In this document: one piece after another, positions 1 to 20,790 of the stretch
How positions within the stretch are numbered: the first letter of the stretch is position 1
How the letters are laid out: every line of letters starts with the position of its first letter
Assembly (NCBI GenBank): GCA_013150955.1
Contig: JAADJD010000022.1
Location: 1 to 23,989, forward strand
Origin: Calditrichota bacterium
GTDB taxonomy: Bacteria > Calditrichota > Calditrichia > RBG-13-44-9 > J042
Reading direction: 5' to 3'
Length of the DNA stretch: 23,989 nt
Made by a program: the position numbers and the translations under genes
The notes under the pieces: model-generated
Told to the model about the DNA's origin: nothing
Database searches by the model: none
Seen by the model: the letters and a program-made list of their open reading frames with translations, nothing else

Positions 1-106
1 ACATTTTCATCCAGATCTAACCCAGGGTATTTTATTAATTTTATTTGTGTTCATTCGTGTAATTCGTAGGCTAATGCATAATCTGGGTTAAAGCATAATT
101 TGGGTT
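1..106 (-). repeat. Intergenic ACGAAT repeat, locus 1 (partial, cut by window edge)
   Basis: This is the terminal part of a repeat found at eight places in the window, here in reverse orientation. It shows the core (reverse complement of TCTGGATGAAAAT), then TTTTATTTGTGTTCATTCG, then CGTGTAATTCGTAGG and the end motif ATGCATAATCTGGGTT. A second short copy of the end motif (AAGCATAATTTGGGTT) follows directly. It lies downstream of the minus-strand rlmD gene, 60 nt beyond its stop. The other end is outside the window. Confidence 0.85.
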
Positions 107-166: not shown

Positions 167-1579
167 TCAGGTGTGGGATTGATTGGATCGGCGCAGCAAG
201 GTAAGGCTTTCCACGTGGTAGGTTTGGGGAAACATGTCGAATGGGTAGATGGTGTCCGTGGTGTATCCCAGCCGGGTAAAGATTTCCAGATCCCTGACCA
301 GGGTTTTGGGATTACAGGAGACGTAAACGATCTTTTCGGGCTGCAGTTGCACCAGCTGGTGGATAAATCGTTCGTCCAGGCCTTTCCGGGGTGGATCCAC
401 AATGACGGTAGTGAATCTGGCTGCAGAGGATTCCGGGGAGCCAAGGTACGCTTCGGCATCCCCAATCTGAAATTCCACGTTGGAAATTTGATTATCACCG
501 GCATTTTGGATGGCGGCCTGAACGGCTTCTTCGCTGGATTCGATGCCGACTACATGCCTGACCCGTCGCGCAATGTACAGGGCGATGGTGCCCACTCCAG
601 AAAATAAATCCAGTACGCTTTCCGAAGGGGAAAATTCCGCAATTTCGGTAAGTTTTTCCAGCAAACGAACCGTTTGAACGGAGTTGATCTGAAAAAACGT
701 ATTGGGGTAGATGCGAAAGGTGAGGGGGCCAATTTTTTCGTAAATAAACGGTTCGCCCCAGATCAGGATGTTCTCGGGGCCCAGGATCACATTGGTCCTG
801 CGGGGTTGAATGTTGAGATAAACACTGGTCAATCCCGGCAGGTGATTTTTCAGCTCCTGCAGCGCACCCTTCCAGTTGGGTACTTCCTGTGTGGTGACCA
901 CCAGAATTACCATAACCTGGTTGGTGAACATGCCCTTTCGAACCACCACGTGGCGCAAAATGCCTTCGTGAGCGCGTTCGTCGTAAATCGGGATGTTTGA
1001 GCGATTGGCCCAGTCCCGAATGATGCGAAGCACGGCATTGGCATCCCGCGATTCCACCAGACAGCGATCGATAGGAACCAGAAAATGGGTACCGGAACGG
1101 TAAAGTCCGTAAATGACCTGATCCCCTTTTATTTGAAACGGCATCTGGGTTTTGTTGCGGTAGTAAAACGGTTCTGGCATGCCCACTACCGGTGCCACTT
1201 TAACCGAGCGCAGGGAAGGATATGCCAGCAGCAGTCGTTGAATGATTTGTTGTTTGAATCGCAATTGGAGGGGATAGGCCATGTGCTGCAGGTGGCAGCC
1301 ACCGCATTCGTCGAAAAAGGGGCAGGGGGGCTCCACCCGATCAGGCGCCTGCTCCAGCAGCTTTTTTAGAACGATGCGATCCTTGCGAGGCCGTTCGGGG
1401 CGGTATTCCACCAGCACTTCTTCCCCCGGAAGGGTCTTTTCCACCGTGAGCTTATGCCGCTGATGGAAGGCCACCCCGGCGCCTTTTTCATTCAGAAATT
1501 CAATCTTGGTTCGGATGCGAACGATTGGTTCCGAAAGAGCCAGGCCGTTGCCACGCTTTCGTTTCTTCCTTTTTGCCAT
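167..1579 (-). CDS. rlmD: 23S rRNA (uracil-5-)-methyltransferase, RumA/RlmD family
   Basis: This SAM-dependent enzyme makes 5-methyluridine in RNA, most likely U1939 of 23S rRNA. The 470-residue product has the family layout: a basic N-terminus, a TRAM-like beta-barrel (about 15-75), and four cysteines for a 4Fe-4S cluster (C86, C92, C95, C173; motif CPFFDECGGC). A Rossmann methyltransferase domain follows with LDLFSGVGTIALY (323-335), the IVDPPRKGL motif (393-401), the nucleophile C422 in VSCNPKTL and the general base E457 in HVESL. The frame stays open upstream to 1693, but homology begins only after the ATG at 1579, whose product opens MAKRKKRKRG, so this start was chosen; the ribosome site is weak. 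RlmC/RlmCD and TrmA belong to the same superfamily, so the exact target uridine is inferred. No operon partner is visible: a repeat-filled gap separates it from the DUF72 gene. Confidence 0.93.
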   Translation of the reverse strand: MAKRKKRKRGNGLALSEPIVRIRTKIEFLNEKGAGVAFHQRHKLTVEKTLPGEEVLVEYRPERPRKDRIVLKKLLEQAPDRVEPPCPFFDECGGCHLQHMAYPLQLRFKQQIIQRLLLAYPSLRSVKVAPVVGMPEPFYYRNKTQMPFQIKGDQVIYGLYRSGTHFLVPIDRCLVESRDANAVLRIIRDWANRSNIPIYDERAHEGILRHVVVRKGMFTNQVMVILVVTTQEVPNWKGALQELKNHLPGLTSVYLNIQPRRTNVILGPENILIWGEPFIYEKIGPLTFRIYPNTFFQINSVQTVRLLEKLTEIAEFSPSESVLDLFSGVGTIALYIARRVRHVVGIESSEEAVQAAIQNAGDNQISNVEFQIGDAEAYLGSPESSAARFTTVIVDPPRKGLDERFIHQLVQLQPEKIVYVSCNPKTLVRDLEIFTRLGYTTDTIYPFDMFPQTYHVESLTLLRRSNQSHT

Positions 1580-1800
1580 AATCCCGGACTTCGCCTTGGT
1601 CCACAAAGAACCCGAATGCACACCAATTGAATGAAAAATTGTTTGCCCCGGTTTCCATTGGAATCGGGACGACAGCCCTCTCAAAGATCCCAATTTCCCG
1701 GGCCTGTTTTTCCACTTCCCGATACAAAGGCGGCAAAATCTAAAATGGTGAAGGCCGGATTCCTAACGGTTTTTAAAGTTTCCGATTGCCCGATTCCCTG
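1580..1800. other. Gap upstream of rlmD, no certain feature
   Basis: This 221-nt stretch must hold the rlmD promoter, but I see no convincing -35/-10 pair. On the minus strand a second frame is open from a TTG at 1736 through the rlmD start to 1500. It reads as a reasonably protein-like chain (with segments such as YREVEKQAREIGIFER and FGFFVDQGEV), which may be chance or a remnant of an older gene. I do not call it as a gene. Confidence 0.4.
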
Positions 1801-2153
1801 TAAATCCAGATTATGCATTCGCCTACGAATGACACGAATAAACACAAAGAATACGTTTGACGATGTCTGGAAGGAAATGTGTTCCGGGAGATATTTTTGT
1901 AAACATTTTTCGGATTCATTCGCGGGATTCGCGGTTATTACATTAATTCGATTTATTCATGTGATTCGCAGGCGAATGCATAATCCCAGATTAAGCAATA
2001 GCCTACGAATTACACGAATTAACACAAATAAAACCAATAAAGTACATTGGATTGTGTCTGGATGAAAATGTGTTCCTTAGTTTATTCGCGTTTTTGTCGA
2101 CATTTTTTGGTTTCATTCGAGTGATTCGCGGTTTAATGCAAAATTTGGGATAA
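1801..2153 (+). repeat. Intergenic ACGAAT repeat, locus 2 (two tandem copies, forward)
   Basis: Two head-to-tail copies meet at about 1987-1992. The first has the best inverted ends in the window: 1809-1842 and 1952-1985 are reverse complements over 34 nt with only about 3 mismatches (GATTATGCATTCGCCT at one end, AGGCGAATGCATAATC at the other). The second copy carries the full consensus: TACGAATTACACGAATTAA, CACAAATAAAA, the core TCTGGATGAAAATGTG, then GTTTATTCGCG, TTTCATTCGAGTGATTCG and CGGTTTAATGC. Both lie in the gap between the start of rlmD and the end of the DUF72 gene, so they are upstream of one gene and downstream of the other. Confidence 0.9.
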
Positions 2154-2346
2154 TCCGGGCTAAGTTGATCGCAGGCAAACGCCTGTGGGGGTCGATCCGA
2201 TATATTCGGGAACATGGGGAATCCTCGTACATGTTGGCAAAGTCGTCCTCAGATTCCGTGAGAAAAACGACCGTGAAGCGGTCTGGCTTCTGATATTTGC
2301 CTTTGAAAGCCAGGGAACGCCTGTTTCCAAACGGATAGAGGCTCAT
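2113..2346 (-). CDS. Doubtful small ORF downstream of the DUF72 gene
   Basis: An ATG 16 nt beyond the DUF72 stop opens a 77-codon frame on the same strand, reading MSLYPFGNRRSLAFKG at its start and containing FTVVFLTESEDDFANMY. The composition is protein-like and the position would suit a second gene of an operon. Against it, there is no clear ribosome site, the last 13 or so codons run into the intergenic repeat, and I recognise no family. It could be chance or a decayed gene whose end was replaced by the repeat. Confidence 0.2.
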   Translation of the reverse strand: MSLYPFGNRRSLAFKGKYQKPDRFTVVFLTESEDDFANMYEDSPCSRIYRIDPHRRLPAINLARIIPNFALNRESLE

Positions 2347-2362
2347 TTTACCCGGGTTGAAA
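2154..2362. other. Non-repeat gap between repeat locus 2 and the DUF72 gene
   Basis: About 210 nt lie downstream of the DUF72 stop. Apart from the doubtful minus-strand frame at 2113-2346 I see no gene, no hairpin with a T-run and no repeat. Confidence 0.4.
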
Positions 2363-3136
2363 TTAGCCTTGCTCTGTGCTGGCGGTTGCGGACTGCTGGT
2401 ACCGCTGCACCAGGGATTGCAGGGTCTTGGCATTTTTTACAGCGTAGCCTTCCACATCGTTGTTAAAGAAGGCCCATACTTCCAGCCCTTGCTGTGCCCA
2501 GTCAACCATTTTTTGCGCGTATGTTTCCAGCATTTCATCCGGATAATCCGATGCATACAACCGCCCCGGGCCATGAAACCTCAGGTAAACCAGGTCGCCG
2601 GTCACCGTTTCCAGGTAAGGAAAGCGTCCACCCGAATGCGCAATGACGAAGGCAATGCGATATTCGCGCAACAGGTTCAGGGCTGCGGAATCGAACCAGG
2701 AATCGTGTCGCACTTCCAGTGCGAATTGGTAATTCTGGTACCGTTCGCGGAGCAGCTGAAAGAAAGGTTGCGCCCGGGAAGCATCGAAGCGCATGCTGGG
2801 GGGTAGTTGAATGAGAATGGGGCCCAGCTTTTCTTTCAGAATGGAAAAAACCTCGAAAAAACTGGCCAGGGCTTCCTCCACCGCCACCAGCTTTTTTTGA
2901 TGTGTAATCAGGCGGCTGAGTTTTGGGCACAGGCGGAAATGGGGTGGAGTGCGGGTGAGCCAGCCTTCCACCATGGCCGGTTTGGGCAAGCGATAAAAAC
3001 TGGCATTTAATTCCGTGCAGTCAAAATGTTGAACGTAGTATTCCAGAAATTCAGAAGGTTTCAGATGCGACGGGTAGAACCGACCGATCCAGTGCTTATA
3101 GCTCCATCCGGAAGTGCCAATCCAGATGCGTTTCAT
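2363..3136 (-). CDS. DUF72 (YecE-like) domain protein
   Basis: The 257-residue product matches the DUF72 family along its whole length. It opens with IWIGTSGWSYKHW and continues with FYPSHLKPSEFLEYY, FDCTELNASFYRLP and FRLCPKLSRLITH. Further family segments are LGPILIQLPPSMRF, FALEVRHDSWF, YLRFHGPGRLY and a late WAFFNNDVEGYAVKNA. Members are TIM-barrel proteins, common in bacteria and archaea, with no settled biochemical role, so no function is claimed. The length is normal for the family. The start at 3136 follows GGAG about 4 nt upstream. The gene stands alone: locus 2 repeats lie downstream and locus 3 repeats begin 30 nt upstream, leaving little room for a promoter outside the repeat. Confidence 0.9.
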   Translation of the reverse strand: MKRIWIGTSGWSYKHWIGRFYPSHLKPSEFLEYYVQHFDCTELNASFYRLPKPAMVEGWLTRTPPHFRLCPKLSRLITHQKKLVAVEEALASFFEVFSILKEKLGPILIQLPPSMRFDASRAQPFFQLLRERYQNYQFALEVRHDSWFDSAALNLLREYRIAFVIAHSGGRFPYLETVTGDLVYLRFHGPGRLYASDYPDEMLETYAQKMVDWAQQGLEVWAFFNNDVEGYAVKNAKTLQSLVQRYQQSATASTEQG

Positions 3137-3165
3137 GATCTCCGGCCCTTCTATTTATTGGGTGA

Positions 3166-3514
3166 TAAACCCAAATAATGCATTTAACCGCGAATCACAC
3201 GAATGAAACCAAAATACCTCCAAAAGAAGCGAATAAACTCCAATAATGCATTAAACCGCGAATCACGCGAATGAAACCTAAAAATATCAATAAAATCGCA
3301 AATAAACCTCGAAACGAATTTTTATCCAGATCTGATCTAATGTATTTGATCATTTTTATTTGTGTTAATTCGTGCAATTCGTGGTCTAATGCATAATCCG
3401 GGATAAATCATGAGAACAAGTTTTTCATCCAGATACAATCCAATTTTTTATTAATTTTATTTGTGTTCATTCGTGTCATTCGTGGTTTTAATGTATAATC
3501 TGGGATAAATCCGG
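3166..3514 (-). repeat. Intergenic ACGAAT repeat, locus 3 (one full and two partial copies, reverse)
   Basis: Three units stand in reverse orientation. The first (about 3166-3235) is truncated and keeps only one end (AACCGCGAATCACACGAATG). The second (about 3236-3409) is complete, with AACCGCGAATCACGCGAATG at one end and TTCGTGCAATTCGTGG at the other, around a core reading ATTTTTATCCAGATCTGA. The third (about 3410-3514) lacks its first end. The block fills most of the space between the start of the DUF72 gene and the end of the aminotransferase gene, both on the minus strand. Confidence 0.9.
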
Positions 3515-3663
3515 ACAATGCAATTATTTATACGAATGATCCCGGGAGAATTTTCGGAAAGGGCGAAAAACAGGAACAGTGGAACGGGCATACCACAGGA
3601 AAAAGCGTTATTGGCCGCATCGATCTGACGGATCGGGCACCACTGAGTGGTTAACGATAGGAT
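3515..3663. other. Gap downstream of the aminotransferase gene, no clear feature
   Basis: This 149-nt stretch has higher GC than the adjoining repeat. It holds a short symmetric word (ACCACTGAGTGGT, near 3640) with no room for a loop and no T-run, so it is not a convincing terminator. A plus-strand frame of about 30 codons from an ATG near 3535 has no support. Confidence 0.35.
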
Positions 3664-4839
3664 TCACAGCTGCTTCAGGATGTCTCGAATGATATCCACC
3701 CCCTGATCGATATGGGATGCTTCCACTATGAGCGGTGGCAGAAAACGGAGCACGTTACCGGCTGTGCTGTTCAACACGATTCCTTTTTCCAGCCCCTTTA
3801 ACACCAGCGGAAACGTATCCTGATGCATTTCCATGGCTGCCATCAGTCCCAGCCCGCGCACGGTTTTGATCCGATCGGGAAATTCGCTCTGGAGGTTCCG
3901 AAGCTGATTCAGCAGATAGGCACCGGTTTTCTGGACATGTTGCAGGAGATTTTTTTCTTCAATTTCCTGAAGCACGGCCAGTCCGGCGGCACAGCTCAGG
4001 GGACTGCCTCCGAAGGTGGTGCCATGTTCGCCCCGCTGCAGGACGTCGGCAAGCGAAGCGCGAACCAGGAAGGCTCCCAGCGGCAATCCGCCACCCAGCG
4101 CTTTGGCCGAGGCCACCAGATCCGGCTGCATATCGAAATGTTGATAGGCCATGAACTTACCGGTGCGTCCAATCCCGGCCTGAATTTCATCACCGACGAC
4201 GAGAACGTCGTGCTGTTCGCGTACGGTCTGAATGGCCTGGATGAATTCAGGTTCTGCGGGAACGATGCCCCCTTCCCCCTGGATGAATTCCAGAAAAATG
4301 GCGGCGGTGCGTCCGTTAACCGTGCGAAGCAGCGCTCCCGGATCGTTGTAAGGTAGTTGAATGACACCGGGTAGCAGGGGGGTAAAGCTTTTCTGATATT
4401 TTTCCTGTGCCGTGATGGAAAGTGCCCCCAGCGTGCGACCATGAAAGGCGTTTTCAAAACAGATAATGTGATCCTTTTGCCGCGCTTTGCCCCATTTTTT
4501 TACAATTTTAAGGATCCCTTCAATCGCTTCGGTGCCGCTGTTGGTGAAGAACAGCCGATCATAGCCGGCCAGCTGCAGCAGTTTCCGCGCCAGTTCAATC
4601 TGAACATCCTGCACAAAGAAATTGCTCAGGTGAAGGTTGCGCTTCAATTGTTGTTCAATGGCTTTCTGAACCCGGGGATGCTGGTAGCCCAGGGCGTTAA
4701 CACCCAGACCACTGAAAAAATCCAGATAGGCCTTCCCCTGGCGGTCGTACAAAAAGACGCCCTGTCCGTATTGCACTTCCAGCGGAAGCCGGCGGTATAC
4801 CGGCAAAAAGTATTGTTCCGATTCCTGAATCCAGTTCAT
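3664..4839 (-). CDS. argD: Acetylornithine/succinylornithine-type aminotransferase (class III, PLP)
   Basis: This is a 391-residue fold-type I aminotransferase. Its PLP features are the phosphate-binding SGTEA (101-105), ENAFHGRTLGAL (129-140), the pyridine-contacting D217 in VVGDEIQAGIGRTG, and the Schiff-base K246 in ASAKALGGGLPLGA. The GTTFGGSPLSCAAG and C-terminal NVLRFLPPLIV segments are typical of acetylornithine aminotransferases (ArgD), which convert N-acetylglutamate semialdehyde and glutamate to N-acetylornithine and 2-oxoglutarate. No other arginine-biosynthesis gene is adjacent, so a catabolic or other omega-aminotransferase role cannot be excluded. AAGGGA lies about 7 nt before the ATG. 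It is divergent from the GHKL kinase gene and appears monocistronic. Confidence 0.85.
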   Translation of the reverse strand: MNWIQESEQYFLPVYRRLPLEVQYGQGVFLYDRQGKAYLDFFSGLGVNALGYQHPRVQKAIEQQLKRNLHLSNFFVQDVQIELARKLLQLAGYDRLFFTNSGTEAIEGILKIVKKWGKARQKDHIICFENAFHGRTLGALSITAQEKYQKSFTPLLPGVIQLPYNDPGALLRTVNGRTAAIFLEFIQGEGGIVPAEPEFIQAIQTVREQHDVLVVGDEIQAGIGRTGKFMAYQHFDMQPDLVASAKALGGGLPLGAFLVRASLADVLQRGEHGTTFGGSPLSCAAGLAVLQEIEEKNLLQHVQKTGAYLLNQLRNLQSEFPDRIKTVRGLGLMAAMEMHQDTFPLVLKGLEKGIVLNSTAGNVLRFLPPLIVEASHIDQGVDIIRDILKQL

Positions 4840-4872
4840 ATCGTTTCCCTTTTATTTCAGGTGACCCACGGG

Positions 4873-4901
4873 ATTATCGTTGCCTGGCCAACAGAGGGCA
4901 A
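4873..4901 (-). promoter_or_regulatory. Candidate sigma70 promoter for the aminotransferase gene
   Basis: On the minus strand TTGCCC (4896-4901) and GATAAT (4873-4878) are separated by 17 nt. The -10 lies about 33 nt from the start codon at 4839. This is a pattern match only. Confidence 0.45.
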
Positions 4902-4997
4902 TCCGTTTTATGGCCTTGTTTTCCAGCAAAATGGTTCGATGATATGGGTGTGGATACGAAACGTGTTTCATACAGAGGCGATACCCAAATTACGTTT

Positions 4998-5025
4998 TTG
5001 AAACCCTGGCATCTTTTTTTATATT
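4998..5025 (+). promoter_or_regulatory. Candidate sigma70 promoter for the GHKL kinase gene
   Basis: TTGAAA (4998-5003) and TATATT (5020-5025) are separated by 16 nt and lie 29 nt before the start codon at 5055. A second AT-rich box (TATAAT, 5039-5044) lies too close to the ATG to give a normal leader. The two divergent promoters share the 215-nt gap 4840-5054. Confidence 0.5.
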
Positions 5026-5054
5026 CGATGAAGCAAAATATAATTGTTTGGTGA

Positions 5055-5501
5055 ATGAAAGGCAAAAAAAGAAAATCAACCATTTACGATGACCAGCTGG
5101 TCATTTCCAGCGATTTCTCGAACCTTTCCAAGGTGGAGAAATTTTCCCAGCGGATATCGAAAAAGGCCCGCCTTACCGAAGATCAGGGAGACAATCTGGC
5201 CATTGCCCTGACTGAGCTGGTGAATAATGCCATCATTCACGGGAACAAATCTGACCCTTCCAAACAGGTGGCCATTTTTGTGCAGTACAAACCGGATCGG
5301 GTGGAAGTCTCGGTGCTGGACGAAGGGGAGGGGTTCGATCCGGCCACGCTTCAGAATCCCACCGATCCCGAAAATCTCTGGAAAGAAAATGGCCGGGGCA
5401 TATTTTTAGTCCAGCACCTGATTGATGATCTCATCTTCGAGCAAACCCCACAGGGACTGCTGGTCACCATGGTCATTTCCCTGCGAAAAGCCACCCGATA
5501 G
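5055..5501 (+). CDS. RsbW-like GHKL ATPase (anti-sigma factor kinase family)
   Basis: The 148-residue product is a stand-alone HATPase_c domain of the RsbW/SpoIIAB type. The N-box is ELVNNAIIHGN (54-64), the G1 box DEGEGFDP (89-96) and the G2 box GRGIFLV (113-119). The family uses ATP to phosphorylate a STAS-domain antagonist on serine and binds a sigma factor when free, but many members in Gram-negative bacteria act in other partner-switching or two-component circuits. Neither a STAS protein, a PP2C phosphatase nor a sigma factor lies nearby, so the partner is unknown. The ribosome site is poor: GGTGA abuts the ATG. No better in-frame start exists because the next residues already lead into the domain. 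It converges on the ABC exporter operon with only 44 nt between stops. Confidence 0.87.
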   Translation: MKGKKRKSTIYDDQLVISSDFSNLSKVEKFSQRISKKARLTEDQGDNLAIALTELVNNAIIHGNKSDPSKQVAIFVQYKPDRVEVSVLDEGEGFDPATLQNPTDPENLWKENGRGIFLVQHLIDDLIFEQTPQGLLVTMVISLRKATR

Positions 5502-5545
5502 CATCATCGGAGCTGCTGCGATCACAAATCTCCAGTGCACACCGA

Positions 5546-6802
5546 TCAATTGTAACGGATCCAGCGAATAATTTCGGGTAACGTGGGACGTTTCCCGTAA
5601 AGCAAAATGCCCGTGCGATAGATTTTTGCCGATACCCAGGTTCCGGCCACAATGGCTGCCAGATTAATCAGAATGGCACCCCAGATTTCGTACCATGGGG
5701 GCATCATCAGCGTAATGCGCAGAAACATGAGCATGGGAGTAAAGAAGGGAACGTAGGATAAAACCTGCACCAGGGTGGATGCTGGATCTCTCACCACCGT
5801 AAAGCTAATGATAAAGGGTATGACCACCAGAATGGTGATGGGAGTGGATAGTGCCTGGGCATCCTCCTGGCTGGAGGACATGGCCCCCACTGCGGCGTAC
5901 AGGGTGGAGATCTGAAAGTAACCCACCAGGAAGAAAACGATGAAATAGAAGAACACCACTGGGGAGATGCTGATGTACTTCAACAGTGCTGGATTGGAAG
6001 CGGCCGCAAAGGCGAAGACCCCCAGCGCCATGGCGACCCACAGCAAGTATTGAATGAGGCCCACCATGCCCACCCCGAATACCTTGCCCATCATGAGTTG
6101 AAAGGCATTGGTGGAAGAAAGCAGCACTTCCATGATGCGGGAAGTTTTTTCTTCCAGAACTCCGCGCATGGTGGCATTCCCGTAAAGCAGGCTGGTCATG
6201 TACAAAATGATCAGGAAGACAAAGGCGGTGACCCATTCCTGTCCCAGTTGCTTTTCCCGGGCCTGTCCCTTTTCAATTTTGATGGTTTTGATTTTTAATC
6301 GGGTGGTCAGTTGCTCGATCACGTCCGGATTGATGCCGGCCCGGAATAGCTTCAGACGGTTGAGCTCCTGATTGATCCGATCCCGAACCAGCTGGATGAA
6401 TTCCATGTCGCTAATGCTCTTCCCCATGTATATCAGTGTTCCCCCTTCCCAGGCATTGGAGGGGATGATGACCACGGCTTTAATCTGTTTGTCTTCCAGT
6501 TGTTGCAGAAAAAGGGCGCGCTGGCGTTCGTAGGTGATGGAATCGATGACGGTGAGGATGAACCGTGGCTGCCCATTGGCCAGGGTGTCGCTAAAGGCGG
6601 CCGGCAGGTGAGGGGATAGCTGATTCGTCTGGTCGACAATCACCAGGCTGACGGATTTTTCCTCGGACAGGCTCAAGAAAAAGGCAGGACCAAACGAAAT
6701 GCCAATCATGAAGATCGGACCCAGCACGGTTCCCACAATGAATCCCCGGGTGAACACTTTGGTCATAATCTCGCGTTTGATGATGGTAACGATTTTATTC
6801 AT
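5546..6802 (-). CDS. ABC-2 type exporter permease (NatB-like)
   Basis: The 418-residue membrane protein has the ABC-2 permease plan: an N-terminal membrane segment (about 16-48, FIVGTVLGPIFMIG), a large extracytoplasmic domain (about 50-190), and a C-terminal block of five or six hydrophobic helices starting at FVFLIILYMTSLLYG. The cytoplasmic coupling motif GVLEEKTSRIMEVLLSS is typical of NatB/YhaP-like permeases. It should pair with the ATPase encoded just upstream. NatAB exports Na+ in Bacillus, but most homologues have unknown substrates, so no substrate is assigned. The ATG at 6802 was chosen over the upstream in-frame alternative because a strong GGAGGAAA sits about 6 nt before it. The ATG lies inside the end of the ATPase gene (8-nt overlap), implying translational coupling. 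Confidence 0.88.
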   Translation of the reverse strand: MNKIVTIIKREIMTKVFTRGFIVGTVLGPIFMIGISFGPAFFLSLSEEKSVSLVIVDQTNQLSPHLPAAFSDTLANGQPRFILTVIDSITYERQRALFLQQLEDKQIKAVVIIPSNAWEGGTLIYMGKSISDMEFIQLVRDRINQELNRLKLFRAGINPDVIEQLTTRLKIKTIKIEKGQAREKQLGQEWVTAFVFLIILYMTSLLYGNATMRGVLEEKTSRIMEVLLSSTNAFQLMMGKVFGVGMVGLIQYLLWVAMALGVFAFAAASNPALLKYISISPVVFFYFIVFFLVGYFQISTLYAAVGAMSSSQEDAQALSTPITILVVIPFIISFTVVRDPASTLVQVLSYVPFFTPMLMFLRITLMMPPWYEIWGAILINLAAIVAGTWVSAKIYRTGILLYGKRPTLPEIIRWIRYN

Positions 6803-7706
6803 GGCCGTTTCCTCCCCCGACAATTTCGATGAAGATGTCGTTTAAACTGGTTTCCATGGCCTCGAAGCGGGACACCTGCAATCCCGCCTGTGCCACGGCC
6901 TGGAACAATTCCTGCGGTGCCGTCTGGTCTTTCAGCCGAATTTCCATGTAATTGCCGTAATCATTAATCCGTTCCACAAAGGGTAGCGCGGCGATGAAGC
7001 TGGCATCGCCGGCATATTCCAGTTGAACGGAGTTGTGACTGTAGCGCTGCTTGATGTCTGAGAGGGGGCCCTGCAGCACCACCCGTCCCCGGTTGATCAG
7101 GCAAATTTCTTCGCACAATTTTTCGGCCTGATCCATCAGGTGGGTGGAAAGAATAATGGTTTTCCCCGCCTGTTTAAGCTCCAGCAGAATGTCTTTCAAT
7201 AATTTGGTGTTGATGGGATCCAGTCCACTAAACGGTTCGTCCATGATGATGAGCTGTGGATCGTGCATGATGGTGCTGATGAACTGGATTTTCTGCTGCA
7301 TGCCTTTGGATAACTCCTGGACTTTCTTTTCGGCCCATTTTTCCAATTCAAACCGTTCCAGCCAGTGGTGGGCTCGCCGTCGGGCTTCCGCTGCGGATAA
7401 TCCCTTCATTTCGCCCAGGAACTGAAGGTGATCGACGACTTTCATTTTAGGATAAAGGCCCCGTTCTTCTGGCAGGTAGCCGATCTGGTTTTTGTGTTCT
7501 TCCTGGAAGCGGGCACCAAAGATCTCGATGCGGCCTTCATCCGGAATGATGATGTTCATGATCATCCGCATGGTCGTGGTTTTGCCAGCTCCGTTGGGTC
7601 CCAGCAGACCAAACATTCGGCCCGCTTCGATCTGGAAACTGACCCGGTCCACGGCTTTGAAATGGTCATAAAACTTGCTCACCTGATCCACGATCAATAC
7701 CGCCAT
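6795..7706 (-). CDS. ABC transporter ATP-binding protein (NatA-like)
   Basis: The 303-residue cytoplasmic ATPase energises the adjacent ABC-2 permease. It shows Walker A GPNGAGKT (36-43), a Q-loop-region segment IGYLPEERGLYPKM (75-88), signature LSKGMQQK (132-139), Walker B LIIMDEP (152-158), D-loop SGLD and the switch histidine H189 in LSTHLMDQAE. The remaining 100 residues form the accessory C-terminal domain usual in NatA/CcmA-like ATPases. The variant LSKGMQQK signature is the form normally seen in this subgroup. The frame is open back to 7799, but AAAGGAG about 8 nt before the ATG at 7706 and the domain boundary fix the start. It is the first gene of a two-gene operon. Confidence 0.92.
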   Translation of the reverse strand: MAVLIVDQVSKFYDHFKAVDRVSFQIEAGRMFGLLGPNGAGKTTTMRMIMNIIIPDEGRIEIFGARFQEEHKNQIGYLPEERGLYPKMKVVDHLQFLGEMKGLSAAEARRRAHHWLERFELEKWAEKKVQELSKGMQQKIQFISTIMHDPQLIIMDEPFSGLDPINTKLLKDILLELKQAGKTIILSTHLMDQAEKLCEEICLINRGRVVLQGPLSDIKQRYSHNSVQLEYAGDASFIAALPFVERINDYGNYMEIRLKDQTAPQELFQAVAQAGLQVSRFEAMETSLNDIFIEIVGGGNGHE

Positions 7707-8015
7707 TTCGCCGCTCCTTTTTTGTGATTCAATGGTCATGGGATTTATAAGCAATATATGCAGTCGACAATACGGCCAGGCTGCGGAAATGTTCGCCAAT
7801 TTTTCCAGCGCTCACCGGTTCCGTCCCCCCACCCTTCGTTTTGCCAGAATTTTAACGAACGTCTTATTTTAACCCAAACAATCGAAAATTATTCAAAAAA
7901 AATAACAAAATTTTGTGTTGCTGGAATATTGAGGAGGGAGGGACTTTTAATATCTGGTTGAATTGACCGGGCTTTTGTGTTAGTTTCAAACGATATTGCA
8001 GGCAAAGTGAGAGGG
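7707..8015. other. Divergent intergenic region between the ABC exporter and the amidase
   Basis: This 309-nt AT-rich gap must carry two divergent promoters. On the minus strand TTGTCG (7765-7770) and TATAAA (7744-7749) form a weak pair with a short 15-nt spacer. On the plus strand no good pair stands out; a purine-rich GAGGAGGGAGGGA near 7931 looks like a ribosome site but no start codon follows at a useful distance. No member of the intergenic repeat family is present, apart from a possible short scrap (TTAACCCAAACAAT, near 7868). Confidence 0.4.
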
Positions 8016-9614
8016 ATGAAACGGCGGCATTTTGTTCAATGGCTTCTGGGATGGGGCATGGCACTGGGGGAATTCTTCAGTTTTCCCCGCAAACTCTTTT
8101 CCCGCATACTTCCCCAAAACCAGCTTCCCCGGGGGCACAATCAGATTACCCTGACCCATCCCCGGACCGGTGTGAAGACCCGTTTGCGGGTGGACTGGCA
8201 TTATTCGGTGGCCTATATCAGTGCCCATCAATTTGCCCGGGCTTTGGGGTACCATATTTATTTCAACGAGCAGAAGAGCAAGATGGTGCTATATTTGCCC
8301 GGGAACAAGGTGCTGGTTACCGCGAACAATCCGTTTATTTTGATTGACAATAAAACCTTTCAATTGCCGGTTCCGGCCATCTGGAAAGAGCAGCAAATCT
8401 GGGTACCGCTGGAGCCTTTTCTGGCTGTTCTCAACCGAAATACTAATCTGAATATTGCCTTCGACGCCGGGGATCAGCAGGTTCGCATACAGGAAAAGCA
8501 TTATAACGTCACCGGGATCGAAATATCCACCCGGGCCAACGGAACGGTGATTCGCATCCGCACTTCCAAAAAATACCGGAAAGAGGAAATGACCGCCAGC
8601 ATGCGCTACGGGTGGTTGCATGTGGATCTGTATGGGGCCCGTGCCGATGTGGCGTTACTGAAGCAGACACCCGTGAAGGGCCTGGTGCGGCAGGTAAAGG
8701 CCTTTCAATTTAAGGATTTACTGTCCATTGCGTTTTTATTGCGGGAGGAGCCGTTGTCCCGGGAGCTTTATCAGGATGAATTTTCAGGCGATATTGTGGT
8801 GGTGCTGCGTACCCGGGAGGAGATCCCCGATCCCGCCGAAGAACCGACCACCGGCACCGGAAACGACGCCGCCACCGATGCTGTGGATCCCGTAGATCTG
8901 GAAAAGGAGCGCGAAAAATGGTTGATCGATCGGGTGGTCATCGATCCGGGTCACGGGGGGAAGGATCCCGGGGCCATCGGTGTGGGAAATCTCAAAGAAA
9001 AGGATGTGGTGCTGGATATTGCCCTGCGCCTTGGGCGGTTAATCGAGAAAAAGATGCCCGGCGTGGAGGTGATCTATACCCGGAAGGATGATCGCTTTGT
9101 GGAACTGAAAGAGCGAACCCGTATTGCCAATCGCAAAAAAGGAAAGGTATTTATTAGCATTCATGCCAACTGGAGTCCCAATAAGCGCACCAGCGGATTC
9201 GAAACCTACATTGTGGGTCCGGAAAAGGGTGAACGGGCGGCGGAGGTGGTGCTGAAAGAAAATTCGGTGATTGAATTTGAGGACAATAAGGAAGAATACG
9301 AAGGGATCAACTTCATCCTGGCGCAGATGGCCCAATCCGCTTTCATGCGGCATTCGGAATACCTGGCGTCGCTGGTGCAGGAGGAAATGGAAAAGCGGCT
9401 CCGCAGCCTGAAAATGAAAAGTCGGGGCGTGAAGCAGGGGCCTTTCTGGGTGATGGTGGGGGCAACCATGCCCAGCATTTTAGTCGAAACCGGATTTGTC
9501 AGCAATCCTTACGAGGCCCGTCTGTTGCGCACCAAACGGCATCGGCAAAAAATTGCCGAAGGCATTTTTGCCGGATTGCAACGGTTCAAAAAAGATTACG
9601 AGAGTTCGATTTAA
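8016..9614 (+). CDS. N-acetylmuramoyl-L-alanine amidase (Amidase_3) with AMIN domain and Tat-like signal
   Basis: This periplasmic zinc amidase cleaves the bond between N-acetylmuramic acid and L-alanine in peptidoglycan. The 532-residue product begins MKRRHFVQWLLGWGMALGEF, a twin-arginine-type signal. A copper-amine-oxidase-N-like region follows (about 50-150), then an AMIN-like domain (about 165-265), a linker rich in D, E, P and T (270-295) and the catalytic domain (305-525). Zinc ligands are H313 (DPGHGG), E328 (LKEKD) and H383 (SIHAN), with the catalytic glutamate E491 in VETGFVSN. The start at 8016 was preferred to a GTG at 7977 because it places the signal at the N-terminus. It has GAGAGGG directly upstream, closer than usual. 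The glutamate racemase gene follows after 3 nt, so the two are probably co-transcribed. Confidence 0.93.
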   Translation: MKRRHFVQWLLGWGMALGEFFSFPRKLFSRILPQNQLPRGHNQITLTHPRTGVKTRLRVDWHYSVAYISAHQFARALGYHIYFNEQKSKMVLYLPGNKVLVTANNPFILIDNKTFQLPVPAIWKEQQIWVPLEPFLAVLNRNTNLNIAFDAGDQQVRIQEKHYNVTGIEISTRANGTVIRIRTSKKYRKEEMTASMRYGWLHVDLYGARADVALLKQTPVKGLVRQVKAFQFKDLLSIAFLLREEPLSRELYQDEFSGDIVVVLRTREEIPDPAEEPTTGTGNDAATDAVDPVDLEKEREKWLIDRVVIDPGHGGKDPGAIGVGNLKEKDVVLDIALRLGRLIEKKMPGVEVIYTRKDDRFVELKERTRIANRKKGKVFISIHANWSPNKRTSGFETYIVGPEKGERAAEVVLKENSVIEFEDNKEEYEGINFILAQMAQSAFMRHSEYLASLVQEEMEKRLRSLKMKSRGVKQGPFWVMVGATMPSILVETGFVSNPYEARLLRTKRHRQKIAEGIFAGLQRFKKDYESSI

Positions 9615-9617
9615 TCC

Positions 9618-10517
9618 ATGCAGAATCCGCAATCCACAAACGGGATGGATCCTCGCCCCATCGGGGTTTTTGATTCCGGTGTGGGTGGGCTCACGGTGGT
9701 CAAACAGCTCATGTCCCTGTTACCGGAGGAACGCATCATTTACTTTGGTGACACCGCCCGCATTCCGTACGGCACCAAATCGGAGGAAACCATAGTCCGT
9801 TTTGCACTGGAGAATTCCGTTTTTTTGCTGGAGAAGCAGGTGAAGATTATTGTGGTGGCCTGCAATACGGCGTCGGCCATTGCCCTGGATCGCCTCCAGC
9901 AGGTGTTTTCGCTGCCGGTGGTGGGGGTGATTGCACCCGGTGCACAGGCGGCCCTGGAACAAACGCGGAATGGGCGAATCGGGGTGATCGGTACCGCCTC
10001 GACCATTCGTAGCAATGCTTATGTTAAAGCCTTAAAGGCCCTGGATGCGCGGGTTAAGATTTTCACCCGGCCCTGCCCCCTTTTTGTGCCCCTGGTGGAA
10101 GAAGGCTGGATTGAGGATGAGGCCACTTATCTGATCGCCCGCCGTTATCTCCGCCCCCTGATGGACAATGGTATCGATACCCTGATCCTGGGCTGCACTC
10201 ATTATCCGCTGTTGAAATCCGTATTGCAGCAGGTGCTGGGGGAATCGGTGGTGCTGATCGATTCGGGCATCGAAACCGCGCGGCATGTGGAGGGCATCTT
10301 GAAAGAACGGGGATTGCGCGCACCAGTGGGACAAAAACCGGAACATTATTTTTACTTGAGCGATTTACCTTATAAATTTCAGGAGATTGGCGAGCGGTTT
10401 CTGGAACGGAGCCTGCCTCATGTAGAAACCGTCAATTTCGAGGCGTTTGTTTCTGGAAAGGGCAGGTCCTTCTGGGAGCGATTTGAAAGGGTGGTTGAAT
10501 CGACCCCGGTAAAATAG
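9618..10517 (+). CDS. murI: Glutamate racemase
   Basis: This enzyme supplies D-glutamate for peptidoglycan by cofactor-free racemisation using two cysteines. Both are present: C82 in VACNTAS and C193 in LGCTHYPLL. The substrate-binding IGVFDSGVGG (15-24) and YFGDTARIPYG (42-52) motifs are intact, and the length (299 residues) is slightly above the family norm because of about 12 extra N-terminal residues. The ATG at 9618 lies 3 nt after the amidase stop with no good ribosome site of its own, which fits coupling to upstream translation. An in-frame ATG at 9645, preceded by ACGGG, is an alternative that would give the usual family N-terminus. Confidence 0.95.
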   Translation: MQNPQSTNGMDPRPIGVFDSGVGGLTVVKQLMSLLPEERIIYFGDTARIPYGTKSEETIVRFALENSVFLLEKQVKIIVVACNTASAIALDRLQQVFSLPVVGVIAPGAQAALEQTRNGRIGVIGTASTIRSNAYVKALKALDARVKIFTRPCPLFVPLVEEGWIEDEATYLIARRYLRPLMDNGIDTLILGCTHYPLLKSVLQQVLGESVVLIDSGIETARHVEGILKERGLRAPVGQKPEHYFYLSDLPYKFQEIGERFLERSLPHVETVNFEAFVSGKGRSFWERFERVVESTPVK

Positions 10518-10633
10518 GGAAGAGAAGGTTTGCGGGTTGGCCAGATGCGGCCGAATAATCGGATCACCGGTTTATTCATGGGAAAGGCCGGGGGGCGGGA
10601 GTGCCCGAAAAACAGGAAAATTCCGGAGGAACA

Positions 10634-11590
10634 ATGAGAAGCGTTTTGCAAGTGGCGATATTGGTGATGTTGTTTTTTCCTGGCTGGAGCTGGGGACAAT
10701 CGGCAGGGACAACCAGTTTTAATTTTCTGAAGAATCAATACAGTGCGCGGGGGGCAGCACTGGCCGGAAACCTGGTTGCGGTAAAAGGGGACCTGAACAC
10801 CCTGATGTACAATCCGGCAGGACTCACCGGTTTGCCTAAAACGCAGTGGATGCTGGGCTACGTGGATCATTTACTGGATTTTCAGGGAGGCCAGCTGGCT
10901 TACGGGCGGGTGGTCCCACGCTGGGGGACACTGGGGGTCTGGCTGGTGTACTTTAATTATGGCCGTTTCGAGGAAACGGACGTTTTTGGAGAACCCACGG
11001 GAAAGGAATTTGGAGCTTCGGAGATGGCCCTGGGGGTCACCCTGTCCAATGTGCTGGGGCCGAATTTTGATTATGGTGTGAGCGTTAAGTGGATTTATTC
11101 TGCCCTGGATGTGTACACCGCCTCTGCACTGGCCATCGATGCCGGATTAATTTACACCCATCCCGGAATCGAAGGATTGCGGATTGGGCTGTCCGTGTCC
11201 AATGTGGGGATCATGCTGGACAAATACACCACGGTCAAGGAAAGCATGCCCATTTTGATCCGTGTGGGATTTGCCAAGCGACTGGCCCATCTGCCCTTAC
11301 TCTTTACCGCTTCTTTAAACGATCTCACCCGCAGTGATGGCGGGCCGCTGTGGAACCGGTTAAAGCGGTTTTCCGTGGGCGGCGAATTTGATGTCAGCCA
11401 GGTCATCAAATTGCGGTTTGGGTATCAGAATGACGTCAATCAGAATGTTAAGCCGCTGGGCGGGCGCAATTTTGCCGGGGTTACCGCGGGATTGGGAATC
11501 GTGTGGCGAGGGTTCCGGCTGGACTACGGCTATTCATCCTGGGGAGACCTGGGTTCTCAGAATCGGTTGACGGTCACCGGCACGTTTTAA
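10634..11590 (+). CDS. PorV/PorQ family outer-membrane protein
   Basis: The 318-residue product has a cleavable signal peptide (MRSVLQVAILVMLFFPGWSWG, cleavage near residue 21-23). The PorV/PorQ opening follows: FLKNQYSARGAALAGNLVAVKGDLNTLMYNPAGLTGL, split by the recognisable SARGAALAG and NPAGL motifs. The rest is a run of amphipathic beta-strands ending in an aromatic residue (VTGTF), as expected of a FadL-like outer-membrane barrel. In Bacteroidetes, PorV serves the type IX secretion system, but broader FCB bacteria carry many paralogues of unknown role and no other T9SS gene is visible. GGAGGA 4 nt before the ATG at 10634 decides the start against an upstream GTG at 10601. A 116-nt gap after murI contains a weak promoter-like pair, so it may be the third gene of the operon or separate. 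Its stop codon is the first bases of repeat locus 4. Confidence 0.88.
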   Translation: MRSVLQVAILVMLFFPGWSWGQSAGTTSFNFLKNQYSARGAALAGNLVAVKGDLNTLMYNPAGLTGLPKTQWMLGYVDHLLDFQGGQLAYGRVVPRWGTLGVWLVYFNYGRFEETDVFGEPTGKEFGASEMALGVTLSNVLGPNFDYGVSVKWIYSALDVYTASALAIDAGLIYTHPGIEGLRIGLSVSNVGIMLDKYTTVKESMPILIRVGFAKRLAHLPLLFTASLNDLTRSDGGPLWNRLKRFSVGGEFDVSQVIKLRFGYQNDVNQNVKPLGGRNFAGVTAGLGIVWRGFRLDYGYSSWGDLGSQNRLTVTGTF

Positions 11591-11748
11591 CCCAGATTAT
11601 TCATGAGCCACGAATTCCACGAATGAACACAAATAAAATGCTTTGGATTATTTCTGGATTGAAAATGTGTTTCGGGGTTTATTCGCGATATTGTGGATAT
11701 TTTTCGTTTCATTTGCGGGATTTGCGGTTTCATGTATGATTTGGGATT
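11588..11748 (+). repeat. Intergenic ACGAAT repeat, locus 4 (single full copy, forward)
   Basis: This is the cleanest isolated copy, about 160 nt: TAACCCAGATTATTCATGAG, CCACGAATTCCACGAATG, CACAAATAAAA, core TTTCTGGATTGAAAATGTG, GTTTATTCGCG, then TTTCATTTGCGGGATTTGCGG and TATGATTTGGG. The TAA at its first position is the stop codon of the upstream PorV/PorQ-like gene. The next gene starts about 90 nt after the element, and that remaining stretch must hold its promoter. Confidence 0.9.
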
Positions 11749-11839
11749 ATTACATGAAACAGACGAAATAGGGAATCCCCTTCGCCAGAATGACAAATTT
11801 TTGTAGATTCCATCTAAAAATGAGCGGGGAGAAAATCCG

Positions 11840-12793
11840 ATGTTGAAAATCACCGATGTTCCCGGAATCGAAGTCGGGCACGCCACCCATCCCACCGAAG
11901 CAACCGGCTGTACAGTGGTGCTGTGTCGCCAGGGAGCCGTGGCGGGTGTGGACGTACGCGGATCTGCTCCGGGCACCCGGGAAACGGATTTATTGCGTCC
12001 CGGCTTTCTGATTCAAAAGATTCATGCGCTGGTATTAACCGGTGGCAGCGCTTTTGGTCTGCGCACGGCGGATGGGGTCATGCAGTACCTCTGGGAACAT
12101 CGGATTGGGTACAATGCCCGGGGCATTATTGTGCCCATTGTTCCCGCAGCAGTAATTTTCGATCTCCGCCCCAATCGAGATCCCCGGTTCCCGGATGCAC
12201 AGATGGGTTATCAGGCCTGTGAGACGGCTGGTCAAACCACTCCCGAGGGGCTGGTGGGAGCGGGTCGCGGCGCCACCGTGGGAAAAATTCTGGGCCCGGA
12301 GAATGCCATGGCTGGTGGACTGGGGAGCGCCGCAACCGAATTACCCGGCGGCGTTCGGGTGGGCGCCCTGGCTGTGGTCAATTCCCTGGGCGACATCGTG
12401 GATCCCGGTAGCGGGGCAATCGTTGCCGGTGCACGGGAACCCGACGGTAGCGGCTTTGCCGATACCCTGCGCTGCATGAAGGAAGGACGTCTGGGATCGC
12501 CCCTTACCGCCACCAACACCACCCTCGCCGTGGTGGCAACCAACGCGCGCTTGACCAAAGAACAGGTCAACAAACTGGCCCAAATGGCCCAGAATGGCAT
12601 TGCCCGCGTTACCCGGCCCGCCCACACCATGTACGATGGCGACGTGGTGTTTGCCTTGAGTACCGGAGAGGAAACCGCGGACATCAATCTGCTGGGCGAG
12701 GTTGCGGCGCAAATGGTCAGCGAAGCCATCCTGCGGGCCGTTACCCTGAGCAACGCCTCCAGCACCGGATCGGAATTGACAAATTTGGAATAA
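11840..12793 (+). CDS. P1 family (S58, DmpA-like) self-cleaving aminopeptidase
   Basis: Members are Ntn-type hydrolases that cut themselves into two chains and release N-terminal residues from peptides, some favouring D- or beta-amino acids. The 317-residue product opens with ITDVPGIEVGHAT and has the family segments LVLTGGSAFGL (64-74), GLVGAGRGATVGK (137-149), VGALAVVNSLGDI and a late THTMYDGD-like AHTMYDGDVVFAL. The predicted self-cleavage site is in ATNTTLAVVATNA (224-236), so the nucleophile would be T227, where DmpA itself has serine. No signal peptide is seen, implying a cytoplasmic enzyme. GGGGAG lies about 8 nt before the ATG. The gene stands alone between two repeat loci, and its TAA stop is the first bases of locus 5. 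Confidence 0.92.
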   Translation: MLKITDVPGIEVGHATHPTEATGCTVVLCRQGAVAGVDVRGSAPGTRETDLLRPGFLIQKIHALVLTGGSAFGLRTADGVMQYLWEHRIGYNARGIIVPIVPAAVIFDLRPNRDPRFPDAQMGYQACETAGQTTPEGLVGAGRGATVGKILGPENAMAGGLGSAATELPGGVRVGALAVVNSLGDIVDPGSGAIVAGAREPDGSGFADTLRCMKEGRLGSPLTATNTTLAVVATNARLTKEQVNKLAQMAQNGIARVTRPAHTMYDGDVVFALSTGEETADINLLGEVAAQMVSEAILRAVTLSNASSTGSELTNLE

Positions 12794-13036
12794 ACCCACG
12801 TGATGCATTAAACCCAGATTATTGATTATCCTACGAATTACACGGATTAACACCGATAAAATAATAAACCCAAATTATGATTTAGACCACGAATTGAACG
12901 AATTAACGCAAATAAAAACAATAAAATCCATTGAATTAGATCTGGATGAAAATTCATTTCGAGGTTTATTCGTGATTTTATTGATATATTTTTGGGTTCA
13001 TTCGCGTGATTCGTGGTTTGACGTACTGTTTGGGTT
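12791..13036 (+). repeat. Intergenic ACGAAT repeat, locus 5 (partial plus full copy, forward)
   Basis: A partial copy (12791 to about 12864) starts with TAAACCCACGTGATGC, whose TAA is the stop codon of the peptidase gene, and keeps only the left arm (CCTACGAATTACACGGATTA). A complete copy follows (about 12866-13036), with CCACGAATTGAACGAATTA, the core GATCTGGATGAAAATT, GTTTATTCGTG, then TTCATTCGCGTGATTCGTGG and a closing TTTGGGTT. The complete copy contains an open frame discussed in the findings. Confidence 0.9.
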
Positions 13037-13205
13037 AAATGCACTTGCCGGTTGAAAATGCTTTCCTTTTTTCATAGCTTAGTCGATCTTGAAAACATTT
13101 CGTGCCGTGCCACAGGCGTTGGTCGGAAGCACATAAGGCACCGTCGCAACGTTTGCCCGGCGCGGGCATCCAATGAAGTGAATAAATTGTACGGGATGAA
13201 TACCA
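13037..13205. other. Leader region upstream of the fused E1 gene
   Basis: This 169-nt non-repeat stretch separates repeat locus 5 from the E1 gene. A weak promoter-like pair is TTGAAA (13052-13057) and TAGCTT (13075-13080), spaced by 17 nt, which would leave a leader of about 120 nt. Two adjacent GTGCC words (13102-13111) could pair with GGCAC (13137-13141). I recognise no riboswitch or tRNA. Confidence 0.3.
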
Positions 13206-15206
13206 ATGGCCATTCGCATAGATCGGAAACACCAGGTGGAGCTGGAAGCCTCCCGGCTTCTGGAGTTGTATTATTATCTCCTGCTGCCCCGCCGCATTGA
13301 AGAACGCATGTTAAAACTGTTACGGCAGGGGAAAATCGGGAAGTGGTTTTCTGGAATCGGGCAGGAGGCCATTGCCGTGGGGGCCACCTTTGCCCTGCAA
13401 TCCACCGATGTGATTCTTCCCATGCATCGCAATCTGGGAGTGTTTACCACCCGGGGGGTGGATTTAAAACGCCTTTTCCGCCAGTTACTGGGACGGGAAG
13501 GGGGATTTACCCGTGGACGCGATCGCACGTTTCATTTTGGGGTGCCCGGGCACCATATTATCGGGATGATTTCGCATCTGGCAGCCATGTTGCCGGTGGC
13601 CGATGGATTTGCCCTGGCCTTTCAACTGCGGGGGGAAAATCGCGTGGCCTTAGCGTTTACCGGCGAAGGGGCCACCAGCGAGGGCGATTTCCACGAAGCG
13701 CTGAATTTGGCCGCCGTCTGGAAATTACCGGTGATTTTTCTGATAGAGAACAACGGGTATGGATTATCCACGCCCACACACGAACAGTTTGCCTGCGAGC
13801 GGCTGGCCGATCGGGGTGTGGGCTATGGTATGCCGGGCGTTCAAATCGATGGTAATGATGTGCTGACGGTTTACCGAACCATTCGGGAAGCGGCAGAGCG
13901 GGCCCGAAGGGGAGAAGGTCCCACGCTTATCGAAGCCATGACCTTCCGTATGCGGGGTCACGAGGAGGCCTCCGGCACCAAATACGTTCCCCCCGAGCTG
14001 TTCGACATCTGGGCGAAAAAAGACCCCATCGATCGTTTTGAGCGCTGGCTGCAGGAGCAGGGAATCTTACAGGACACTCACAAGCAGGAAATCGAAAAAC
14101 GAATTGCTCACCAGATCGATACGGCTTTGAAAGATGCCCTGGACGCTCCCATGCCCCGCAGTCATCCAGAAGCCGAACTGGCCGACGTATACGCGCCCTC
14201 CCGGGTTGCGATTCACATCCCCCGTTCTCCCGGGGAAACCCGCCGTTACATCGATGCCATCAGCGAAGCCCTGTGGCAAAAGATGGAAGCCGATGAAAGC
14301 GTTCTGCTGATGGGGCAGGACATTGCCGAATACGGTGGGGTGTTCAAAGTAACCGAGGGGTTTGTGCAGCGCTTTGGAAAGGCCCGGATACGCAATACGC
14401 CCATCATTGAATCCGGTGCCGTGGGTGCGGCCCTGGGACTGGCGCTGGAGGGATTCAAACCGGTGGTGGAAATGCAGTTTGCCGATTTCGTGAGCTGTGC
14501 GTTCAATCAAATTGTCAACAATCTGGCGAAAACCCATTACCGCTGGGGTGCAGCGGTTAACGTAACCATCCGATTGCCTTACGGAGGTGGGGTCAGTGGC
14601 GGGCCGTTTCATTCGCAAAGTCCGGAGGCCTGGTTCTTTCACGTGCCAGGGCTCAAACTGGTGGCTCCGGCCACACCCTTCGATGCAAAAGGACTGCTGA
14701 TGGCGGCCATCGACGATCCCAATCCCGTCCTCTATTTTGAACACAAATTCCTGTACCGCAGCTTGAAGGGGGACGTCCCCCGGGAACCCTACGCTGTGGA
14801 GATTGGACGGGCAAAGGTGGTACGGAAGGGCACGGACCTGACCATCATCACGTACGGTCTGGCCGTGCACTGGGCCCTGGAGATTGCGGAGCAATTTTCT
14901 TCGGAGGGGTTTCGCATCGAGGTGGTGGACTTGCGAACCCTGCTCCCCTGGGACCGCGAGCTGGTATTGGATTCGGTGCGCCGGAACAACAAAGTGCTGG
15001 TTTTGCACGAGGCCAACCTGACCGGAGGGATTGGGGCCGAAATCGCTGCCACCATTGCCGAAGAAGCCTTCGAATTTCTGGATGCACCGGTGCGACGGGT
15101 GGCCTCTCTGGATACGCCCATTCCGGCAAGTGACTGGCTGGAAAAGCAGGTGTACTGGCCCAAAATACGCTTACCGGATGTCGTTCGTCAACTGCTGGCG
15201 TATTGA
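13206..15206 (+). CDS. 2-oxo acid dehydrogenase E1, fused alpha and beta subunits
   Basis: This 666-residue protein joins the alpha and beta chains of a heterotetrameric-type E1 (branched-chain 2-oxo acid or pyruvate dehydrogenase) in one polypeptide. It would decarboxylate a 2-oxo acid with thiamine diphosphate and pass the acyl group to a lipoyl E2. The alpha half (1 to about 335) carries GIGQEAIAVGA, the thiamine-diphosphate and metal motif GEGATSEGDFHEALN through ENN (153-183), and FRMRGHEEASGTKY. The beta half (about 345-666) carries LLMGQDIAEYGGVF, NTPIIESGAVGAALG, MQFADFVSCAFNQIVNN and GPFHSQSPEAWF. Substrate choice cannot be read from these motifs, and no E2 or E3 gene is in the window. 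The ATG at 13206 has no strong ribosome site; homology begins within about 15 residues. Its TGA stop merges into repeat locus 6. Confidence 0.92.
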   Translation: MAIRIDRKHQVELEASRLLELYYYLLLPRRIEERMLKLLRQGKIGKWFSGIGQEAIAVGATFALQSTDVILPMHRNLGVFTTRGVDLKRLFRQLLGREGGFTRGRDRTFHFGVPGHHIIGMISHLAAMLPVADGFALAFQLRGENRVALAFTGEGATSEGDFHEALNLAAVWKLPVIFLIENNGYGLSTPTHEQFACERLADRGVGYGMPGVQIDGNDVLTVYRTIREAAERARRGEGPTLIEAMTFRMRGHEEASGTKYVPPELFDIWAKKDPIDRFERWLQEQGILQDTHKQEIEKRIAHQIDTALKDALDAPMPRSHPEAELADVYAPSRVAIHIPRSPGETRRYIDAISEALWQKMEADESVLLMGQDIAEYGGVFKVTEGFVQRFGKARIRNTPIIESGAVGAALGLALEGFKPVVEMQFADFVSCAFNQIVNNLAKTHYRWGAAVNVTIRLPYGGGVSGGPFHSQSPEAWFFHVPGLKLVAPATPFDAKGLLMAAIDDPNPVLYFEHKFLYRSLKGDVPREPYAVEIGRAKVVRKGTDLTIITYGLAVHWALEIAEQFSSEGFRIEVVDLRTLLPWDRELVLDSVRRNNKVLVLHEANLTGGIGAEIAATIAEEAFEFLDAPVRRVASLDTPIPASDWLEKQVYWPKIRLPDVVRQLLAY

Positions 15207-15535: not shown

Positions 15536-15578
15536 AGTGTGAAAGGGATTGTCGGATGGGGATCGATTGTTGACGGAA

Positions 15579-17130: not shown

Positions 17131-17163
17131 AAAAAAAGGCCACGGCACCGCAGTACCGTGGCC
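17131..17163 (-). terminator. Rho-independent terminator of the fad operon
   Basis: Read on the minus strand, an 11-bp stem (GGCCACGGTAC with GTGCCGTGGCC, one G-T pair) closes a TGCG tetraloop and is followed by seven T. It lies 26 nt beyond the fadN stop. This is the only textbook intrinsic terminator I found in the window. Confidence 0.93.
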
Positions 17164-17189
17164 GGGAGGATTGTGCTATGCCACTGCAT

Positions 17190-19535: not shown

Positions 19536-19549
19536 GATCTGCCCTCCTC

Positions 19550-20689: not shown

Positions 20690-20790
20690 GATGCCTTCTC
20701 CATTGTTTCGTTTGGATGCAATTGGTTGAATGCGACTACTGGATGGCCACCAACCGGGCCTCCTCTGTTTTTTTGATGGCGGTGGTAAAT

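Follow-up and report, generated by a model that had tools for sequence, protein, structure and literature searches.

The window analysed here, the whole 23,989-nt contig C32 of a 4.07-Mb Calditrichota genome assembled in 66 contigs (G000), carries similar intergenic sequences in eight places, raising the question of whether they are mobile DNA or structures maintained by the host. An earlier note on this DNA had proposed either a non-autonomous mobile element or a structured RNA/DNA boundary element, on the grounds that eight loci totalling about 2.1 kb share one architecture.

One repeat family with sharp ends

Searching with a profile made from 29 genome copies revealed copies and fragments of a single repeat family at all eight loci, covering 2,115 bp of the window and bearing out the shared architecture and its extent. 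The spacing of the arm words, the TCTGGATGAAAAT core, the occurrence of both orientations and the joining of full to partial copies were likewise as first described. The full element is about 165 bp long and runs from CCC to GGG (CCCAGATTATGCATTAG...TTAATGCATTATTTGGG). Full copies drawn from the window and from twenty 20-kb stretches of the genome (57 in all) range from 135 to 180 bp around a 165-bp consensus, from which they diverge by 8–26% (median 13.6%). This length of about 165 bp replaces the initial size of 160–190 bp, and the larger loci are composites. In an alignment of 30 genome copies, conservation begins sharply at CCCAGATT and ends sharply at ATTTGGG, beyond which the sequence is unrelated. 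The terminal inverted repeats are CCCAGATTATGCATTAG and CCCAAATAATGCATTAA; the outer ends as originally drawn included a preceding A or TAA that belongs to a 5-bp target duplication, and the right arm is the reverse complement of the left only approximately. The copy at the first locus, given earlier as 1-106, spans 1-95 and is cut by the contig end, because the window is the whole contig.

The element is non-coding and at 165 bp has no room for a transposase, which sets it apart from autonomous IS1380-family ISs. It has the attributes of a bacterial MITE: short length without a transposase gene, terminal inverted repeats, target duplications of fixed length, and many copies with insertion differences. 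The evidence below gives good support for regarding these intergenic repeats as a new bacterial MITE family, unusually dense and with ends of IS1380 type; copies in the window are listed in Table 1.

Table 1. MITE copies and fragments in the window, with bit scores for interrupted copies given for the joined halves and for each half singly.
Position	Strand	Feature	Evidence
1-95	-	MITE copy cut by contig start	profile match, profile positions 7-101
1805-1951	+	older, diverged, nearly full MITE with degenerate right end	profile match
1952-1979		apparent short end fragment of another MITE copy	follows the 1805-1951 copy
1985-2149	+	full-length MITE, 165 bp	target duplication ATAAT at 1980-1984 and 2150-2154
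3160-3237	-	right-end half of older MITE interrupted by 3238-3402	joined halves 124.3 bits vs 42.7 and 59.4 singly
3238-3402	-	full-length MITE nested in older copy	target duplication ATAAA both sides
3408-3514	-	left-end half of older MITE interrupted by 3238-3402	joined-flank score
11591-11745	+	MITE retaining both ends, 9 bp deleted internally	flanks TTTAA/ATTAT, no exact duplication
12788-12804		additional MITE end fragment, ~17 bp	adjoins the 12804-12861 fragment
12804-12861	+	left-end MITE fragment	profile match
12869-13034	+	full-length MITE	flanks ATAAA/TTAAA, no exact duplication
15201-15298	+	left half of older MITE interrupted by 15299-15465	joined halves 101.8 bits vs 47.2 and 35.2 singly
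15299-15465	+	full-length MITE nested in older copy	target duplication TTTAT both sides
15471-15529	+	right half of older MITE interrupted by 15299-15465	joined-flank score
16785-16915	-	right-end part of older MITE interrupted by 16916-17080	joined halves 181.1 bits vs 123.8 and 38.2 singly
16916-17080	-	full-length MITE nested in older copy	target duplication TTTAT both sides
17086-17138	-	left-end part of older MITE interrupted by 16916-17080	joined-flank score
23629-23793	+	full-length MITE	flanks TTTAA/TTTAT
23794-23834	+	right-end MITE fragment	profile match

Target duplications, nesting and empty sites

We compared the 5 bp before CCC with the 5 bp after GGG in the 57 full copies. These flanks were identical in 26, where chance would give 7.7 and the highest count among 2,000 flank shuffles was 16, and duplication lengths of 2–4 and 6–9 bp showed no enrichment in the same copies. 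The duplicated target reads WTWAW. In about half of the full copies the flanks do not match exactly, a result compatible with their 8–26% divergence from the consensus. Nesting was scored with a script that deleted each full copy together with one 5-bp flank, joined the remaining flanks and rescored them against each flank alone. By this measure, 13 of the 57 full copies are nested in an older one: their rejoined flanks score as a single continuous element, by a wide margin over either flank, and exact duplications accompany 10 of the 13; three nested copies lie within the window (Table 1). A good part of the full-to-partial joins thus arises because new copies nest in old ones; others, such as those at 12804-12861 and 23794-23834, are unexplained by nesting. 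The MITE itself contains WTWAW targets, with ATAAA close to its left arm and TTTAT close to its right, which would explain why new copies often land in old ones.

Comparison with a congener (G001) revealed that all eight sites are empty there. The genes of the window are collinear in G001 apart from one inverted gene (11840-12757), their counterparts lie on two contigs (window 190-7719 and 7946-23620), and neither syntenic stretch contains a profile match. Because G001 is just 71–84% identical to the window in aligned stretches, empty-site junctions are clear only beside genes. The insertion at 11591-11745 coincides with the stop codon (TTTTAA) of the gene upstream, and its site is empty in G001. 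A single related element was found in G001 (G001:C15:2434-2755, about 320 bp, duplication ATAAT); other periodic repeats, of ACAAAG and TTCAATC type, lie between its arms. The gene inverted in G001 sits between two MITE loci (window 11840-12793), and recombination between MITEs is one possible cause of the inversion.

Copies are not confined to the window. A first look across the genome gave 736 candidates, many more than chance would produce, the top 40 of which have 88–100% identity over most or all of their length. In a 400-kb sample that left out the window, 117 matches, 49 of them full length, occupied 14,392 bp (3.6%), which extrapolates to some 500 full-length copies among about 1,200 matches genome-wide. 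If the sample is representative, a share of about 3.6% of 4.07 Mb is dense for a single MITE family in a bacterium. Two congeneric genomes, one packed with the MITE and one with a single related element found, offer a natural before-and-after comparison.

Termini shared with a resident IS1380 element

A search of the genome for IS1380-family transposases gave a single match (PF13701, DDE_Tnp_1_4 in Pfam), which also matches the NCBIfam IS1380 equivalog (219 bits; cut-off 180). Overlap of two contig ends gives the resident IS1380-family IS a length of about 1,459 bp. Contigs break within this multicopy IS, of which the left and the right end were each seen at five sites. The left and right ends read CCCAGATTACGCAATAG and CCCAGATTACGCATTAG and mostly lie beside WTWAW (TTAAA, TTTAA or similar). 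A remnant on contig C8, 95% identical to the left end, deviates slightly from the other IS ends. The left end of the MITE is identical to these two ends at 15 and 16 of 17 positions, respectively, whereas the best chance match among 52,170 background positions from the congener reached 13 of 17. Together with the common WTWAW target, these 15–16 of 17 terminal bases are what is expected of an element mobilised by an IS1380 transposase. The likeness is limited to the terminal 17 bp, beyond which the two sequences diverge; the MITE is therefore no simple internal deletion of the resident IS.

Taken with the duplications, the nesting and the empty sites, these comparisons make it very probable that an IS1380-family DDE transposase, encoded by the resident IS of about 1.46 kb or by a close relative, moves the MITE in trans. 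Such a transposase would recognise the shared end CCCAGATTA[T/C]GCA[T/A]TAG, excise or copy the MITE and insert it where AT-rich WTWAW sites have been cut in a staggered fashion, yielding the 5-bp duplications. Repeated rounds of transposition could have filled the intergenic gaps in this lineage, with copies in genes or promoters presumably purged by selection. The proposal of a non-autonomous mobile element is thereby strongly supported, by the 5-bp duplications, the nesting, the empty sites and the ends held in common with the IS.

A variant of this explanation assigns the main part in mobilisation to another IS1380-type transposase that has since been lost, the present IS having arrived later or being a descendant whose ends are similar. 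IS copies are near-identical whereas MITE copies lie a median of 13.6% from their consensus; the MITE copies therefore look older, and much of their spread may be due to an earlier relative of the IS. In addition, the congener has a related element with an ATAAT duplication, and no match to the IS1380 transposase was detected in it. However, any lost mobiliser would need to be a close IS1380 relative, given that the present IS already has 15–16 of the 17 terminal bases and the target in common with the MITE. We consider this variant unlikely as the principal account; it refines the preferred explanation, and the two are not mutually exclusive. The only assembled transposase frame is frame-shifted near its N-terminus, the other IS copies being visible only at contig ends. 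One IS right end directly adjoins, and apparently interrupts, a reading frame at G000:C12:1-900 that looks like a cas1 gene.

Insertion sites and folding

MITEs make up 28% of sampled intergenic bases, and among 74 merged loci none lies mostly inside an ORF, as called by a simple longest-ORF rule. Occupancy was compared in gaps with a net length of 60 bp or more: MITEs were present in 16 of 28 convergent gaps and in 1 of 29 divergent ones. WTWAW density is lower in convergent than in divergent gaps (13.5 vs 23.3 per kb); since targets are not commoner where the MITEs lie, the bias implies selection against promoter insertions, or some targeting. The pattern marks the places that tolerate insertion; on its own it is no demonstration of function.

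A host-maintained functional element, such as a bidirectional terminator, an mRNA 3'-end hairpin or a boundary element kept for its RNA or DNA structure, could also produce this strong bias in spite of the sparser targets in convergent gaps, and the + strand does give a long hairpin (consensus -53.6 kcal/mol) that is stabler than the - strand fold in 43 of 47 copies. Single MITE copies form long hairpins, as inverted repeats do, and the placement bias is equally expected from selection against promoter insertions. Orientation relative to transcription showed no significant preference (11 same, 18 opposite, p=0.26). RNAalifold on 47 copies found 16 nearly invariant pairs with a negligible covariation term (-0.16; one pair, one double change); because invariant pairs argue neither for nor against a structure, an RNA function is unsupported, and an Rfam search with the element returned no match to a structured RNA family. 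Preserved pairing between the arms, a point raised in the earlier note, is in effect lacking in terms of RNA covariation, but a MITE does not need it. The element's absence from each of the eight orthologous sites in the congener, along with the target duplications and nesting, also speaks against host maintenance, which we regard as very unlikely. The boundary-element half of the original proposal has accordingly not been upheld.

Several insertions adjoin genes. A TetR-like ORF (window 22904-23671) has its listed start within MITE sequence (MCEFVSFVGYCIIRV...), and its real start therefore probably lies downstream. A MITE lies directly at the 3' end of the only GxxExxY gene in the genome (G000:C62:38166-41513), and at G000:C12:1-900, beside the IS1380 right end, another has deprived a four-helix-bundle (TIGR02436) gene of its N-terminal part. 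We considered both genes as autonomous partners and rejected them; each is present in one copy in the genome, and they look like targets. On contig C18 (L053:1980-2200), a run of TCAAAACATAYRNTTGTTTT-like units beside MITE copies looks like a separate minisatellite. Homologues found for the dehydrogenase encoded in the window were only distant, mostly from Bacteroidota, with up to 61% identity.

Relation to known elements

A review of bacterial MITEs covers the Correia elements of Neisseria, ERIC and Chunjie (PMC10969869). Like these, the present element is short, non-coding and intergenic, with terminal inverted repeats, target duplications, size variants and mutual insertion; unlike them, it has ends and a target of IS1380 type. 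The extrapolated copy number given above falls near the top of the range in that review, in which ERIC reaches 711 in Photorhabdus luminescens (PMC10969869). The word IS1380 does not occur in the text of the review, and the open-access literature that we searched yielded no description of an IS1380-linked MITE, although one may exist elsewhere.

Among IS1380 elements, ISEcp1 has ends reading CCTAGATTCTACGT and 4-5-bp repeats (PMC7864471). A complete IS1380 element in a relative (G017) has ends reading CCTAAATTTCTAA (CCTAAATTTCTAATGTAA ends) and the duplication TTTAA; this genome, which has complete IS1380 copies, shows three end pairs 1.6–2.9 kb apart and one pair at about 0.48 kb, and no MITE burst was seen in it. 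The MITE resembles ISEcp1 and the G017 element in its CC[C/T]A[A/G]ATT termini and target duplications of 4–5 bp, and differs from IS1380-family ISs in lacking a transposase and having only its terminal 17 bp in common with the resident IS. In the IS1380 'transposable modules' of ISPme1 and ISEcp1 (PMC9330008), the transposase likewise moves DNA beyond the IS; those modules are variable-length segments beside an IS, whereas the MITE is uniform, two-ended and high-copy.

That the repeats are instead REP/REPIN-type sequences moved by a Y1 tyrosine transposase (RAYT), as their high-copy, intergenic inverted arms and two Y1_Tnp matches in the genome might suggest, is hardly conceivable given their direct 5-bp target duplications, their DDE-type termini in common with the IS1380 element, and the lack of a full element near either Y1_Tnp locus, with one end-sized match about 1.25 kb from one of the genes and no match by the other.

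ACGAAT arm words in other genomes

For this genome at least, a hitherto unassigned class of repeats, intergenic and rich in ACGAAT, can now be described as a mobile element with a likely mobiliser. No paper on the ACGAAT arm words was found in the open-access literature searched. Of 40 genomes of the class, 11 contain the arm pattern CACGAATTNCACGAATTNNCACGAA; the reversed control gave no occurrence. Outside the genus, arm words were found in G027, in an element of about 120 bp with ends TGAGTTCA...TGGACTCA and 13 copies, and in G008 with ends GAGRCTGTTGCAGATT...AATYTGCAACAGCCTC. Tentatively, the periodic ACGAAT arm may be a portable module that mini-elements with unrelated termini captured independently, the termini being of IS1380 type here; we hold this to be possible but doubtful. 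If it is correct, the arms would be a mobile element in their own right, or a host-factor or terminator module that aids the persistence of such elements. With the same arm words known in elements with unrelated ends, the question is now testable. Recurrences of the arm words within elements that have unrelated inverted ends or no obvious ends were seen across G008 (L074, L219), G027 (L213, L224, L231, L232-L244) and G016 (L215, L225, L245-L251).
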